Source: Parapedobacter tibetensis
GTDB taxonomy: Bacteria > Bacteroidota > Bacteroidia > Sphingobacteriales > Sphingobacteriaceae
Length of the DNA: 64,000 nt
Reading direction: 5' to 3'
NCBI RefSeq assembly: GCF_024704835.1
Contig: NZ_JAMXBE010000015.1
Coordinates: forward strand, 62,001 to 126,000
Numbering within the stretch: position 1 is the stretch's first letter; the number at the start of each line of letters is the position of its first letter. Both the position numbers and the translations under genes were made by a program. Under the pieces are notes generated by a model. It searched no databases, was not told the DNA's origin, and was given only the letters and a program-made list of their open reading frames with translations. Of this stretch, positions 42,601 to 58,552 are shown piece by piece.

Positions 42601-43806
42601 ATGAGCAAAAAGTTACAAAATAGGGTATCTTCATTTAAGGACGCCCAAATCGTCAAACAGAGCGGACTATATACTTATTTCCGCGCAATTCAATCCGGTC
42701 AGGACACGGAAGTGACCATACAGGGCAAACGTGTACTGATGTTTGGATCGAATTCATACCTCGGTCTTACTAACCATCCGAAGATCATCGAAGCTACGCA
42801 AAAGGCCACGGCCAAATACGGCACAGGGTGCGCAGGATCACGGTTCCTCAATGGCACATTGGATATCCATGAGGAATTGGAACACCAATTAGCGACCTAT
42901 ACTGGAAAGGAAGCGGCTTTGCTTTTCAGCACAGGCTTCCAAGCTAATTTAGGAGCACTTTCCTGTCTCACGGGGCGGAACGATTACATCTTGCTAGACG
43001 AACGCAATCATGCTTCACTGATTGATGGAAGCCGTTTATCCTTTTCAAAGGTCATCAAATATGCGCATAACGACATGCAGGATCTCCACCGCAAGCTGGA
43101 GCAGCTACCCGAGGATGCACTAAAGCTTATTGCTACGGATGGAATTTTCAGCATGGAGGGTGACATTGTCAAATTACCTGAATTAAATGAGCTTGCTATG
43201 ATGTATGATGCCGCGGTCATGGTCGACGATGCCCATAGCCTTGGCGTCATTGGCAGCCTTGGTGCAGGTACGGCAGACCATTTTGGTCTTACTGAACAAA
43301 CCGACCTCATCATGGGAACCTTCAGCAAGTCGTTGGCGTCCTTGGGAGGCTTCATTGCTAGTGACGTAACCACCATCGAATACCTGAAACACCGTGCCCG
43401 GTCACTAATGTTCAGTGCCAGCATGACACCGGCCTCCGCGGCCAGCACATTGGCTGCATTGGAAATCATCCGTTCGGAACCTGAACACATGCAACGATTG
43501 TGGGAAAACACTCTTTATGCAAAGCAATTGCTGATAGAAAATGGTTTTGATTTGGGTAAAACAGAAAGCCCCATTCTCCCGGTATACATCCGTGACAATG
43601 AGAAAACCTTCCGAATTACCCAGCTACTGCATGATGACGGCGTATTTGTCAATCCGATTGTATCTCCTGCCGTACCCACCGAAGAATCATTGATTAGGTT
43701 TTCACTCATGGCCACCCATACATTTTCCCAAATAGAGGAAGCAATTGAGAAATTGGTAAAGGCATATCGTTTTGTCAATCCTGAAATTATAGACGTAACG
43801 TTATGA
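42601..43806 (+). CDS. spt: Serine palmitoyltransferase
   Basis: 401 residues, a PLP-dependent alpha-oxoamine synthase. It condenses L-serine with palmitoyl-CoA (or an acyl-ACP) to 3-ketodihydrosphingosine, the first step of sphingolipid synthesis. Visible residues: 'GSNSYLGL', '[14 protein letters not shown]', His138 in '[11 protein letters not shown]' (stacks on PLP), '[11 protein letters not shown]' (Asp/His of the PLP pocket), and '[13 protein letters not shown]' with PLP-binding Lys243. The sequence agrees almost phrase by phrase with Sphingobacterium SPT as I remember it, not with KBL or AONS. It heads a cluster of ceramide genes. Its stop overlaps the next start (ATGA). Confidence 0.95.
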
Positions 43807-44924
43807 TAGCATTGGTTACCATCAAGGACAAGCGCGGGGTGAAGCGTTTCATCGACTTTCCCCATAAGCTTTATGAAGCTGATGCGCATTACGTGCCGGA
43901 ATTGTTCGTCAGCCAGCAGGAAATGCTCTGGCCAGGCAGCCATCCATTTTATGAACATTCCAGCGCCCAGCTATTCCTGGTCTGTAATGGGGATAAGATT
44001 ATGGGAAGGATCGCGGCAATCTTAAATAATAATCATAATGCCTATACCGGCAACAAAGAGGGCTTCTTTGGCTTTTTTGACTGCATAAACCAGCAGGAAA
44101 TCGCAGACATGCTGTTAAATGCGGCATCCGCATGGCTCCGGTCAAAGGGCATGGAGAACATGATTGGCCCCATTAACTTAACGACCAATGATACCTGCGG
44201 ACTGTTGGTGGAGGGTTTTGACTGCCCACCTGTGATCATGATGCCATACAACAAACCATACTATGAGCATTTGTTAGTTCAGTACGGATTGCGAAAGAAA
44301 ACGGATCTTTTTGCCTACCGGGTTAGCAAAGCGACAGCCAATCAAAAGGCAGTAAAATTAGTGGGGAAACTGGAAGAAAGGCTGCAAACCAAAGGAATTG
44401 TTATTCGGGAAATCAATATGCGTGATTTCAAAAACGAAATCATAAAAGTGCGGGAAGTATATAACAAAGCATGGGATAAAAATCTGGGATTCGTGCCCAT
44501 GACAGCAGCAGAGTTTACCCATGCTGCCAATAGCATGAAATTGATCCTCGACCACCGGTTTTGCATTGTAGCGGAAAAGGAAGGGAAACTGGTTGGGTTT
44601 GCGCTTGGCATTCCCGACATCAACCAGATACAGATCAACATAAAAAAGGGTCGTCTTTTCCCAACCGGTATCTTCAAGTTGCTGCTCAACAAAAAAAGGA
44701 CTGACACACTACGCGTGCTCATGCTTGGTGTAATCGAAGGTTACCGAAAGATGGGCATTGAAGCCTGCCTATATGGCCGGATTATCAATAATGCGGCGCA
44801 TACTCGAATTAGGCAAGCAGAGTGTTCTTGGATGCTTGAGGATAATTATCTGATGAATCATGCTATTGAGCAAATCAACGGCGAATTGTACAAACGTTAC
44901 CGGATTTTTGAAAAAAAACTATGA
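43803..44924 (+). CDS. GNAT-type N-acyltransferase, probable bacterial ceramide synthase
   Basis: 373 residues. It has a double GNAT-like layout: an N-terminal half with '[23 protein letters not shown]' and a C-terminal half with '[26 protein letters not shown]' and '[26 protein letters not shown]', the acyl-CoA binding 'R/Q-x-x-G-x-G/A'-like turn being 'GYRKMGIEA'. Bacterial ceramide synthases (bCerS of Caulobacter) are unusual GNAT-related proteins of this kind, unrelated to eukaryotic CerS. It is wedged between spt and a CerR-like reductase with ATGA overlaps on both sides, so it probably N-acylates the sphingoid base. The role is inferred from family and context. Confidence 0.82.
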
Positions 44925-45937
44925 GCGCGAAGATCGCGAAAATATTGATAACAGGAGCAAGTGGCTTTATAGGATATCACCTGCTGAAAGCAGCGAAATC
45001 CAGGGGCTTTGAAACGCATGCTGGGATACGGAAAGGCAGTGAAATTTCCCACTTGCAAGGGTTGGTGGATGATTTTGTCTACCTGCAATACGATTCAGTA
45101 GAAAATCTTGTAAGCACCTTGAGCGAACAGCAATATCAATATATTATTCATACAGCGGCACTGACACGGTCGAACAGTAAAAGCACACTATTCCGTGTCA
45201 ACGTTGAATACACGAAAAATCTGGCTTTGGCTGCACAAGCCTCAAAAATTCCCTTACGTGCTTTTGTTTTTGTGAGCAGCTTAGCGGCGGTAGGCCCCCT
45301 TGAATACGATGCCGTAAAACCCATCAATGAGCACTCGCCGCTCCATCCGGTGACTGCCTATGGACAAAGCAAATGCATTGCCGAGCAGCAATTGTTGGCC
45401 ATAAAAGGCCTGCCACTGACGATCATACGGCCAACAGCGGTATACGGCCCGCGCGAACGTGATTTACTGGTGCTGTTTAATACTATAGCCAGCGGGTGGG
45501 ACTTTTATATCGGCCGTATCCGACAAAAACTGAGTTTTGTCTATGTGGAAGATTTAGCAGGAGTGATTATTGATGCTGCCATCCAACGCGAATCAGCACA
45601 GGAGCCAAAGACTTATACTATCTCGGACGGAAATATATATGGCAGGTATGAGGTAGCTGATCTCGTAAAGACGCTACTTCCACGGAAGGCATTCCGATTG
45701 CACCTTCCCCTAGGGATTGTCAAAGCAGCCGCCAATGTCCTGGAGTGGTCGTATCGCCAATCGGTGAAGCCGCCAGTTATCTATCGCGAGCGCATCAATG
45801 AATTAACAGCCCCCAATTGGGAATGCGACATCGCCGCCGCTAAACAGGATTTGGCCTTTGCACCGCAATATGATTTGAAAAAAGGGCTTGCAAAAACCAT
45901 CTCTTGGTATAAAGCAAATAAGTGGATGAGTCAATAA
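44921..45937 (+). CDS. cerR: Extended SDR, probable ceramide (3-keto) reductase CerR
   Basis: 338 residues, NAD(P)-dependent epimerase/dehydratase fold. The nucleotide loop is 'ITGASGFIGYHLL' (residues 10-22) and the catalytic Tyr147/Lys151 sit in 'AYGQSKCIAE', with Ser119-120 in 'FVFVSSLAAVG'. In bacteria the 3-keto reduction of the sphingoid/ceramide is made by this extended-SDR type (CerR), not by the classical KDSR, and it acts after acylation. The start overlaps the acyltransferase stop (ATGA). It completes the three-gene ceramide module. An ordinary sugar epimerase is possible but does not fit the context. Confidence 0.82.
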   Translation: MSAKIAKILITGASGFIGYHLLKAAKSRGFETHAGIRKGSEISHLQGLVDDFVYLQYDSVENLVSTLSEQQYQYIIHTAALTRSNSKSTLFRVNVEYTKNLALAAQASKIPLRAFVFVSSLAAVGPLEYDAVKPINEHSPLHPVTAYGQSKCIAEQQLLAIKGLPLTIIRPTAVYGPRERDLLVLFNTIASGWDFYIGRIRQKLSFVYVEDLAGVIIDAAIQRESAQEPKTYTISDGNIYGRYEVADLVKTLLPRKAFRLHLPLGIVKAAANVLEWSYRQSVKPPVIYRERINELTAPNWECDIAAAKQDLAFAPQYDLKKGLAKTISWYKANKWMSQ

Positions 45938-45977
45938 ACAATAAAAATTTAAAAAAACAGCATTTAAAATTAGATAT

Positions 45978-57583: not shown

Positions 57584-57734
57584 TAACGATGACAAATTCA
57601 AATTAGCCGAAGACGTAAGATGATGTGTAGGAATAATTAGCACGAAAGAAGCTGAAATTCACTGCAATAAAAATTATTTATCAATGAATTGTAATTTATT
57701 GGTCATTATTCTCGTCTACTTAAAATAATGTTGG

Positions 57735-57763
57735 TTGGGTGGTGGAAATATTCCATATATTTG
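57735..57763 (+). promoter_or_regulatory. -33/-7 promoter of the second HAD-like gene
   Basis: TTG (57735-57737), 18 bases, TATATTTG (57756-57763), which matches the Bacteroidetes -7 box, 57 bases upstream of the ATG at 57821. The long leader is AT-rich and lacks a hairpin. Confidence 0.6.
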
Positions 57764-57820
57764 ACTTATTAAATTAAAAAGTCAAAGAGTCTGTTAGTTA
57801 GATTTAACAATTTGGCAGCT

Positions 57821-58552
57821 ATGCAAACAAGAGGAATTTTATTGAATTACGAAGGCACCATTGACACGAATGGGCAACATTGGGGGGCCATACTTTGGCA
57901 TAAGTTCCAAAAACACATCATCGGCCTGGACAAATCATTGTTCAACAGGGCATACGCCTATTCAGAGAACGTTTTAGCATCGGATGAAGTCATTAAACCT
58001 ACCCATGTTTTCTTAGACGTGCTCGTCCATAAGATTACTCAACAATTCGATTATTTATCGGAGCAGGGATATAGCTTGGATTATGCGAAGGTGCATACCA
58101 TTGCAAGGGAATGCAATAATTTGGCACTCCGTACATTAAGAAAAACTAAGAACATTTTGGAAAGCTTATCCAGCACGTTTCCCATCGTATTGGTATCCAA
58201 TTTTTATGGCAACCTCAACGCTGTTCTTTCTGAATTTGGCATTAAACAGTATTTCGCTGATGTAGTGGAATCAGGTACCTCTAACATGAATTTCAATACG
58301 GAGATTTACGAAAAAGGGGTCAGCCGTTTAGGATATCCACCGGAAGAATGTGTGGCTGTTGGCGATTCATATAACAGGGATATTTTACCGTCAAAGGCAG
58401 TAGGTTGCAAGACCATCTGGCTCAATGTGATGGGCTGGGAAGAATGGGGGATTGATGAGCTGGAAATATCTGATGCCGAAATCGGGGATTTTAGCCAATT
58501 GCCTGGATTGCTGGAAAACTGGCAAGCACAGCCAACTGTTGTCAGTCTGTAA
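57821..58552 (+). CDS. HAD-like protein without catalytic aspartate, paralogue of 53741-54451
   Basis: 243 residues from the ATG at 57821. It aligns with the HAD protein at 53741 over its full length and shares 'DTNGQHWGAILW', 'VLVSNFYGNLNAVLSEFGI', 'VGDSYNRDI' and 'GCKTIWLNVMGWEEWGIDELEI'. Yet the motif-I nucleophile is Asn9 ('LLNYEGTIDT') and the motif-III lysine is lost ('GTSNMNFNTEIY' against 'VVGVRKPDPEIY'). Motifs II and IV are kept. It is therefore probably a non-catalytic pseudo-phosphatase that binds the same ligand or the active paralogue. It has its own promoter. It could be a degraded duplicate, though the frame is intact. Confidence 0.85.
   Translation: MQTRGILLNYEGTIDTNGQHWGAILWHKFQKHIIGLDKSLFNRAYAYSENVLASDEVIKPTHVFLDVLVHKITQQFDYLSEQGYSLDYAKVHTIARECNNLALRTLRKTKNILESLSSTFPIVLVSNFYGNLNAVLSEFGIKQYFADVVESGTSNMNFNTEIYEKGVSRLGYPPEECVAVGDSYNRDILPSKAVGCKTIWLNVMGWEEWGIDELEISDAEIGDFSQLPGLLENWQAQPTVVSL

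Follow-up and report, generated by a model that had tools for sequence, protein, structure and literature searches.

An ATP-grasp Protein in a Predicted Inositol Phosphoceramide Locus of Parapedobacter tibetensis

Introduction

Inositol sphingolipids play an important part in Bacteroidota of gut and soil. Of two routes to them in Prevotella, the commoner has no proven enzymes. We describe here a run of 14 genes in a 64,000-nt stretch of Parapedobacter tibetensis DNA (the window, to which all coordinates refer) that joins ceramide-forming genes, a myo-inositol-phosphate synthase (MIPS) gene and putative headgroup genes, among them those of an ATP-grasp protein and a PfkB-family kinase. Judged from its sequences, the locus very probably serves to make an inositol-phosphate ceramide. 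Ceramide phosphorylmannose is found in Sphingobacterium. Ceramide phosphoryl-myo-inositol occurs in Sphingobacterium spiritivorum, as cited in Heaver et al. 2022 (PMC9246714).

Two described systems come closest. In Bacteroides thetaiotaomicron, a matching operon, BT_1522-1526, makes inositol phosphoceramide (PMC9246714, PMC8791184). It shares with the window the combination of MIPS and a headgroup module, and differs in its PIP synthase, PgpA-type phosphatase and PAP2-type synthase, none of which is found in the window cluster by Pfam. Heaver et al. also predicted, and left unconfirmed, an "alternative" cluster in Bacteroides vulgatus and Prevotella (NTP transferase, CDP-alcohol phosphotransferase (CDP-AP) and HAD genes near MIPS), with moderate homology in Sphingobacteria too (PMC9246714); a 2023 review repeats this prediction (PMC10191378). 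The three genes near MIPS and the predicted CDP-inositol route are shared with the window. A lysylphosphatidylglycerol-synthase-like gene (BT_1521) and a carboxypeptidase-regulatory-like gene (BT_1527) lie near both cluster types (PMC9246714), and the window has nearby LPG_synthase_TM (LPG-TM; PF03706) and CarboxypepD_reg (PF13715) genes, a likeness by family rather than by direct comparison with BT_1521 and BT_1527. Against the published description of the alternative cluster, the window adds spt, GNAT and SDR genes, PfkB, DUF4833, a hydroxylase and an AraC regulator.

More distantly, the ceramide phosphoglycerate genes of Caulobacter (PMC12275187, PMC11324152) also place ceramide genes next to that of CpgD, a cytidylyltransferase producing a CDP-headgroup donor. 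There, however, the headgroup is glycerate and ceramide is first phosphorylated by CpgB; MIPS and ATP-grasp proteins do not figure in the descriptions consulted from these sources.

The pathway is known in outline, and the locus is not wholly new. What appears new, on sequence comparison, is the core position of the ATP-grasp gene and its fusions to neighboring enzymes, a PfkB protein predicted to be an inositol kinase, the exchange of two headgroup modules behind one ceramide-MIPS block, and a glycine for the fourth motif aspartate of the CDP-AP. The word ATP-grasp is absent from the text of PMC9246714, whose Figure 6 may draw the gene, and PfkB likewise goes unmentioned in that text. A search of open-access PMC articles, with subscription papers, supplements and figures outside its scope, returned no role for ATP-grasp or PfkB in an inositol-lipid cluster, and the word DUF4833 was not found in the papers searched.

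Locus Organization and Conservation

The 14 genes occupy positions 42601-57583, all on the plus strand, with a decayed HAD copy behind them at 57812-58552. Families were assigned by Pfam and, for some genes, by NCBIfam.

42601..43806, +: spt, serine palmitoyltransferase (SPT); NF047600, 727.4 bits, cut-off 640
43803..44924, +: GNAT-type acyltransferase, candidate ceramide synthase; PF00583, 1e-5; flanked by spt and SDR in relatives; role by analogy to Caulobacter cerS
44921..45937, +: SDR/epimerase-type reductase, candidate CerR; PF01370, 3e-31; role by analogy
45978..47300, +: MIPS; PF07994, 7e-100; PF01658, 9e-32
47477..50107, +: CarboxypepD_reg and DUF5686 protein with a putative outer-membrane role; PF18939, 4e-56; PF13715, 6e-16; listed TTG start, in-frame ATG 20 codons in
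50134..50874, +: NTP transferase, predicted inositol-phosphate cytidylyltransferase; PF00483, 5e-10; NF041135 weak, 1.7e-5
50852..51751, +: ATP-grasp protein, ITPK-like candidate kinase; AlphaFold, Foldseek and profile search against the PDB; listed TTG start, ATG 50864 used for the model
51754..52716, +: CDP-AP of the window-type module (module B, below); PF01066, 5e-11, 43.7 bits, cut-off 22; fourth motif Asp replaced by Gly117
52697..53728, +: LPG-TM membrane protein, candidate flippase; PF03706, 5e-26
53741..54451, +: HAD1 hydrolase, candidate phosphatase, nucleophile D8 kept; PF00702, 2e-16
54453..55367, +: PfkB/ribokinase-family kinase, predicted ATP-dependent myo-inositol kinase; TM0415 as closest solved relative; inositol contacts kept
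55364..55951, +: DUF4833 protein, N-terminal hydrophobic helix, mostly strands; PF16117, 7e-51; AlphaFold pLDDT 84.4
55955..56605, +: fatty-acid-hydroxylase-family protein, candidate ceramide hydroxylase; PF04116, 1e-18
56627..57583, +: AraC-family regulator; PF12833, 7e-18; same position in both Parapedobacter relatives
57812..58552, +: HAD2, HAD1 paralogue, probably inactive; nucleophile Asp and motif-III Lys lost

An earlier note on this DNA, made from the sequence alone, had named most of these genes. The genes that it names lie where it placed them, on the plus strand, and belong to the stated Pfam families; only the ATP-grasp protein matches none of these, and owes its fold assignment to AlphaFold and Foldseek. 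The families in its list were right; the DUF5686/CarboxypepD_reg gene, which sits between MIPS and the NTP transferase gene and ends 26 bases before the latter, had been left out. The tight spacing that it reported between 50134 and 57583 is also seen: neighbors share 4-23 bases or are separated by 1-21, taking ATG 54453 as the start of PfkB.

Using the ATP-grasp protein as bait, we scanned 84,980 species genomes, obtained 412 relatives and analyzed the best 80 loci. All 80 are anchored on the ATP-grasp gene, so its presence among them is biased by the bait, and flanking genes may be missed in the 19 loci shorter than 20.8 kb. The NTP transferase, ATP-grasp and CDP-AP genes are adjacent and on one strand in 80/80 loci, with the ATP-grasp gene in the middle. 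HAD genes occur in 75 of the 80, LPG-TM in 70, DUF5686 in 43, DUF4833 in 38, spt in 37, MIPS in 36, PfkB in 35 and the hydroxylase in 23, while spt, GNAT and SDR genes are all present in 36. The gene order is far from chance. The earlier note had named a gene order confined to this strain as an argument against its proposal, and conservation in relatives removes that objection.

The composition of the locus varies by lineage. In Runella, Dyadobacter, Larkinella and Rhabdobacter the genes from spt to DUF4833 are ordered as in the window and MIPS is missing, and the Sphingobacterium loci examined have MIPS to HAD and neither PfkB nor spt. Among the 80, only the two Parapedobacter loci (P. luteus, L011, and P. 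koreensis, L012) hold spt, MIPS and PfkB together, and only these two pair MIPS with PfkB at all; 11 loci have neither gene. A pairing of MIPS with PfkB in one locus as something peculiar to Parapedobacter was dropped, as L126, a locus of another family outside the 80, has both. In a tree of the NTP transferase, ATP-grasp, CDP-AP and HAD proteins from 31 loci and the window (three of 34 chosen loci were left out for an incomplete gene set), the window and the two Parapedobacter form one group (support 100), which joins Sphingobacterium (99). Three of nine Parapedobacter genomes contain MIPS, the ATP-grasp protein and SPT; the other six contain none of the three.

A link to sphingolipids is apparent beyond the locus itself. 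The window SPT passes the Bacteroidota equivalog model NF047600, and 58 of 61 genomes carrying the ATP-grasp locus have an SPT above its cut-off. The other three are Sediminibacterium roseum, a Tannerella metagenome-assembled genome in which the gene is partial, and a Bacteroidia assembly of 1.9 Mb. Across a class-wide sample of 198 genomes, SPT exceeded the cut-off in 13 and the ATP-grasp protein was found in four, all SPT-positive.

Exchange of Headgroup Modules

We refer to the window-type headgroup genes as module B and to the B. thetaiotaomicron-type headgroup genes as module A. Three genomes of the window's family, from three other genera (G021, G027 and G032), contain MIPS and SPT and lack the ATP-grasp protein, and in each the spt-GNAT-SDR-MIPS block is followed by module A genes. 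Their CDP-APs score 403, 382 and 396 bits against NF052561 (PIP synthase, the BT_1523 model; cut-off 350). Each also has a PAP2 protein whose sole NCBIfam match is NF052609 (phosphoinositol dihydroceramide synthase), at 328, 324 and 313 bits and below the cut-off of 480. PgpA, DUF5686, GtrA and hydroxylase genes each occur in two of the three loci. Going by these sequences, the same ceramide-MIPS block carries either module A or module B. Since either module may stand in the same block, module B would be expected to do the same job as module A; this is the strongest argument for that job that the sequences offer, and it links an unproven route to a proven one.

The enzymes of the two modules are nevertheless distinct. 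The window CDP-AP reaches 29.3 bits against NF052561, far under the cut-off, and no PgpA-type phosphatase or PAP2-type synthase was matched by Pfam among the 16 window proteins scanned. The best NCBIfam match of this CDP-AP is an archaetidylinositol phosphate synthase (2e-13, below cut-off). It departs at one place from the CDP-alcohol phosphotransferase motif, quoted by Heaver et al. as DX2DGX2AR...GX3DX3D (PMC9246714): D92, D95, G96, A99, R100, G109 and D113 are kept and the last D is replaced, while the three module A CDP-APs retain it.

Proposed Pathway

The locus as a whole probably encodes one pathway to inositol phosphoceramide. Spt, the GNAT protein and the SDR protein would form dihydroceramide. 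Myo-inositol phosphate would come either from glucose-6-phosphate through MIPS or from free inositol through an ATP-dependent PfkB kinase, and the NTP transferase would turn it into a CDP-inositol donor. The membrane CDP-AP would transfer inositol phosphate to a lipid; that ceramide is the direct acceptor is favored, if with less assurance than the nature of the product. The ATP-grasp protein may act as a second kinase with HAD1 as the matching phosphatase. The LPG-TM protein may flip the inositol lipid, with the DUF5686 and DUF4833 proteins acting on its delivery in the envelope, and the fatty-acid hydroxylase would hydroxylate the ceramide. The sequences support the gene families, the inositol contacts of PfkB, the gene fusions and the module exchange; which substrates and which acceptor are used, and in what order ATP-grasp and HAD act, is inferred.

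The earlier note had called the locus a complete route to a hydroxylated ceramide phosphoinositol. One locus does bring together genes for ceramide, MIPS and the inositol headgroup, whereas the hydroxylated end product, the acceptor and the roles of the ATP-grasp, HAD, LPG-TM and DUF4833 proteins are predictions. The view that LPG-TM is an addition relative to B. thetaiotaomicron does not hold, given BT_1521, and the ATP-grasp protein, likewise taken for an extra, belongs to the core, both in the bait-biased 80 loci and in the unanchored comparison that follows.

The ATP-grasp Protein

A second test, not anchored on the ATP-grasp protein, used 151 genomes of another family of the class, perhaps that of Bacteroides and Prevotella. 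CDP-AP was present in 105 of these and the ATP-grasp protein in 88, with both in 87. Among 20 loci fetched from this family, 13 of them picked for long frames, the ATP-grasp protein is fused to the NTP transferase in eight, to CDP-AP in one and to both in one, the last being an 827-residue frame of NTP transferase, ATP-grasp and CDP-AP (L116:4748-7231).

The AlphaFold model, built with 46 sequences (pLDDT 90.0), was assigned the ATP-grasp fold by Foldseek with probability 1.00. A profile search against all PDB chains returned Entamoeba histolytica ITPK (7e-4), ArgX (0.003), plant ITPK4 (0.009) and PsnB (0.02), followed by human ITPK1 (0.07-0.08) and three L17 ribosomal proteins (0.4); ITPKs thus make up most of the ATP-grasp-type matches, with weak scores. 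The metal motif is D-x-N in 46/46 sequences, as in the aligned ITPKs, whereas ArgX and PsnB have E-x-N. Of the Pfam families, PF05770 (ITPK) has weak matches in the largest number of members, while ATPgrasp_ST has them in six of 46 (best 0.0077). Among 296 genomes of the phylum, PF05770 gave three matches, none above cut-off. Aligned by hhalign to two ITPK fragments, the family profile reached a probability of 42.9 over 43 columns, against at most 1.24 for 20 column-shuffles and without a ligase-profile control. Eukaryotic ITPKs (PMC7618535) share with the family the fold, the D-x-N motif and this weak profile similarity, which lies mainly in the C-terminal lobe. Plant ITPK1 phosphorylates Ins3P (PMC7618535), which is the MIPS product according to PMC8791184.

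Several observations weigh against the proposed scheme or the kinase assignment. Sediminibacterium roseum carries the cluster and lacks an SPT above the cut-off. CDP-AP occurs without the ATP-grasp protein in 18 of the 105 genomes, and three loci (L122-L124) with ATP-grasp and CDP-AP have no NTP transferase match within 13 kb. The fourth motif aspartate of CDP-AP is Gly117 in 77/77 sequences, with Asp118 next to it in 72/77, and the NTP transferase resembles the archaeal bifunctional inositol-1-P cytidylyltransferase NF041135 only weakly. As for the ATP-grasp protein, the window sequence has no Pfam hit at E<=1, and PF05770 is passed by none of the 46 members, nine of which match it weakly (best 0.014). 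The only NCBIfam match of the window protein is RimK, again weak (0.0049), and Foldseek ranks D-Ala ligases first, with a TM-score of 0.72 for ArgX against 0.64 for the first ITPK, which comes at rank 47.

The last two points fit a different function, that of an acid-amine (or acid-alcohol) ligase attaching an amino acid or a group of that sort to the headgroup; the structural neighbors of the protein are mostly ligases (Ddl, ArgX, RimK, PsnB). The invariant D-x-N motif, the preponderance of ITPKs in the profile search and the inositol-phosphate context speak against such a ligase, which we regard as doubtful. Sequence comparison tips the balance slightly towards a kinase rather than a ligase, and its most likely form is an ITPK-like kinase acting on inositol phosphate or the CDP donor, beside the NTP transferase. 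One specific version is rather unlikely: the protein would phosphorylate inositol phosphate, or the CDP form of it, a second time, CDP-AP would first make a phosphorylated inositol phosphoceramide, and HAD1 would then trim or balance it. Were it true, the phosphorylated product would be a bacterial phosphoinositide-like sphingolipid, and the published scheme, in which no lipid intermediate of this route is phosphorylated, would change. An ITPK-like protein fused to donor-making and transfer enzymes gains a testable role from the comparison, as does PfkB as an inositol salvage kinase.

HAD and DUF4833 Proteins

HAD-IA proteins are soluble hydrolases with an aspartate nucleophile. HAD1 keeps D8, K157, D182 and D187 in 76/76 sequences. 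This bears on the scheme of Heaver et al., in print for the same gene set (PMC9246714), in which CDP-inositol is joined to diacylglycerol (PI-DAG), HAD then serves as the phosphoinositol dihydroceramide synthase and the ATP-grasp gene would be a side gene. The prevalence of HAD1 in the 80 loci agrees with that scheme, as do CDP-AP-HAD fusions, seen in two of the 20 fetched loci (L122 and L123) and in P. veroralis (PMC9246714). HAD1 is, however, fused to LPG-TM instead in two others (L117 and L119), and the direct fusions of the ATP-grasp protein to NTP transferase and CDP-AP speak against a side gene. Together with the preserved hydrolase residues, these make the published scheme an unlikely account of the window.

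HAD2 is identical to HAD1 at 112 of 235 aligned residues, with D8 changed to N and K157, the motif-III Lys, to F; from these changes it is probably inactive. It starts 228 bases behind the AraC gene, and neither of the two Parapedobacter relatives showed such a second copy. The DUF4833 model gave no PDB fold match at E<=0.001. In L100 (11765-13045), a BT_1523-type CDP-AP and DUF4833 form one 426-residue frame, a fusion which links DUF4833 to headgroup transfer.

Inositol Supply

The earlier note placed the kinase in the PfkB family correctly and gave it no role; its residues point to an inositol kinase. The closest solved relatives are entries of TM0415 (E 9e-31; next family member 1e-14), the myo-inositol kinase of Thermotoga maritima (Nagata 2018, PMC5931981). 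The four inositol contacts reported there, D11, N78, Q141 and R145, are retained in 27/27 PfkB sequences, including those of MIPS-less Runella and Dyadobacter, while S89, named for the binding mode (PMC5931981), is Q. On this basis an inositol kinase is highly probable. The pyrophosphate signature of TM0415 has not survived: A replaces R229, C replaces R232 and I replaces M266 in all or nearly all, with K171 kept throughout and F221 being Y or F (F in 8/27). Use of pyrophosphate, as by TM0415, was rejected on these donor residues; with three of the five lost, ATP is the likely donor.

MIPS is the sole PF01658 match in the window genome. The assumption that every cluster genome keeps MIPS proved wrong, a PF01658 match being absent from 16/50. 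Window-type PfkB (E <= 1e-80; next matches above 1e-15) was found in 41/51 cluster genomes, the window's included, and in 16/16 of the MIPS-less ones. The ten PfkB-less genomes comprise nine with window-type MIPS and one with divergent MIPS only. Fisher tests of PfkB against MIPS, which ignore relatedness, gave 0.02 (any MIPS) and 1.4e-5 (window-type MIPS). Divergent MIPS is the only MIPS in 20 genomes and lies away from the cluster in the three loci examined (L091-L093; 22-24% identity). The presence of PfkB in all MIPS-less cluster genomes suggests inositol salvage, and such genomes predict bacteria that rely on outside inositol for their inositol lipid.

The MIPS-less genomes, and the ceramide phosphorylmannose of Sphingobacterium, also admit a reading in which some carriers have a headgroup other than myo-inositol, the NTP transferase and PfkB handling another polyol or sugar there. 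Four loci with CDP-AP and without the ATP-grasp protein were examined, and an IspD-like cytidylyltransferase adjoins CDP-AP in three (L128, L129 and L131). This pairing suggests a CDP-AP family that uses the CDP-alcohol made by its neighbor, whatever that may be, and is probably not tied to inositol; at these three loci the headgroup is perhaps different. With the inositol contacts of PfkB unchanged in MIPS-less species, we consider the reading with another headgroup improbable. A soluble di-inositol-phosphate pathway as in hyperthermophiles (NTP transferase, CDP-AP and phosphatase, no lipid), which the weak matches of NTP transferase (1.7e-5) and CDP-AP (7e-8) to parts of the Thermococcales bifunctional enzyme NF041135 might recall, is highly improbable in view of the ceramide genes, the SPT association, the archaetidylinositol phosphate synthase match and the exchange with a lipid module.

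In Runella sp. CRIBMP (L094:7322-8260), which has PfkB, the MIPS match begins at residue 123, about the first 122 residues being missing, and this MIPS is likely a remnant. L126 has a major facilitator superfamily transporter between its HAD gene and PfkB, a position that would suit inositol uptake.

Adjacent and Minor Features

A PdxA-family gene directly precedes the headgroup genes in L126, L115 and L112, and in L126 a DUF4837 gene lies beside it. Scans for promoters and terminators gave no excess over shuffles (39 against 38.6 and 15 against 15.9), and a repeat scan found nothing attributable to the locus. Before the cluster, at 35293-42305, regulator-like, outer-membrane-channel-like, adaptor-like, two ABC ATPase-like and two permease-like genes stand in a row, by eye an efflux operon. 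Behind it, at 58644-59489, a single protein combines an ATP-cone, an Mrr-type nuclease and an AF1548-like C-terminal domain.

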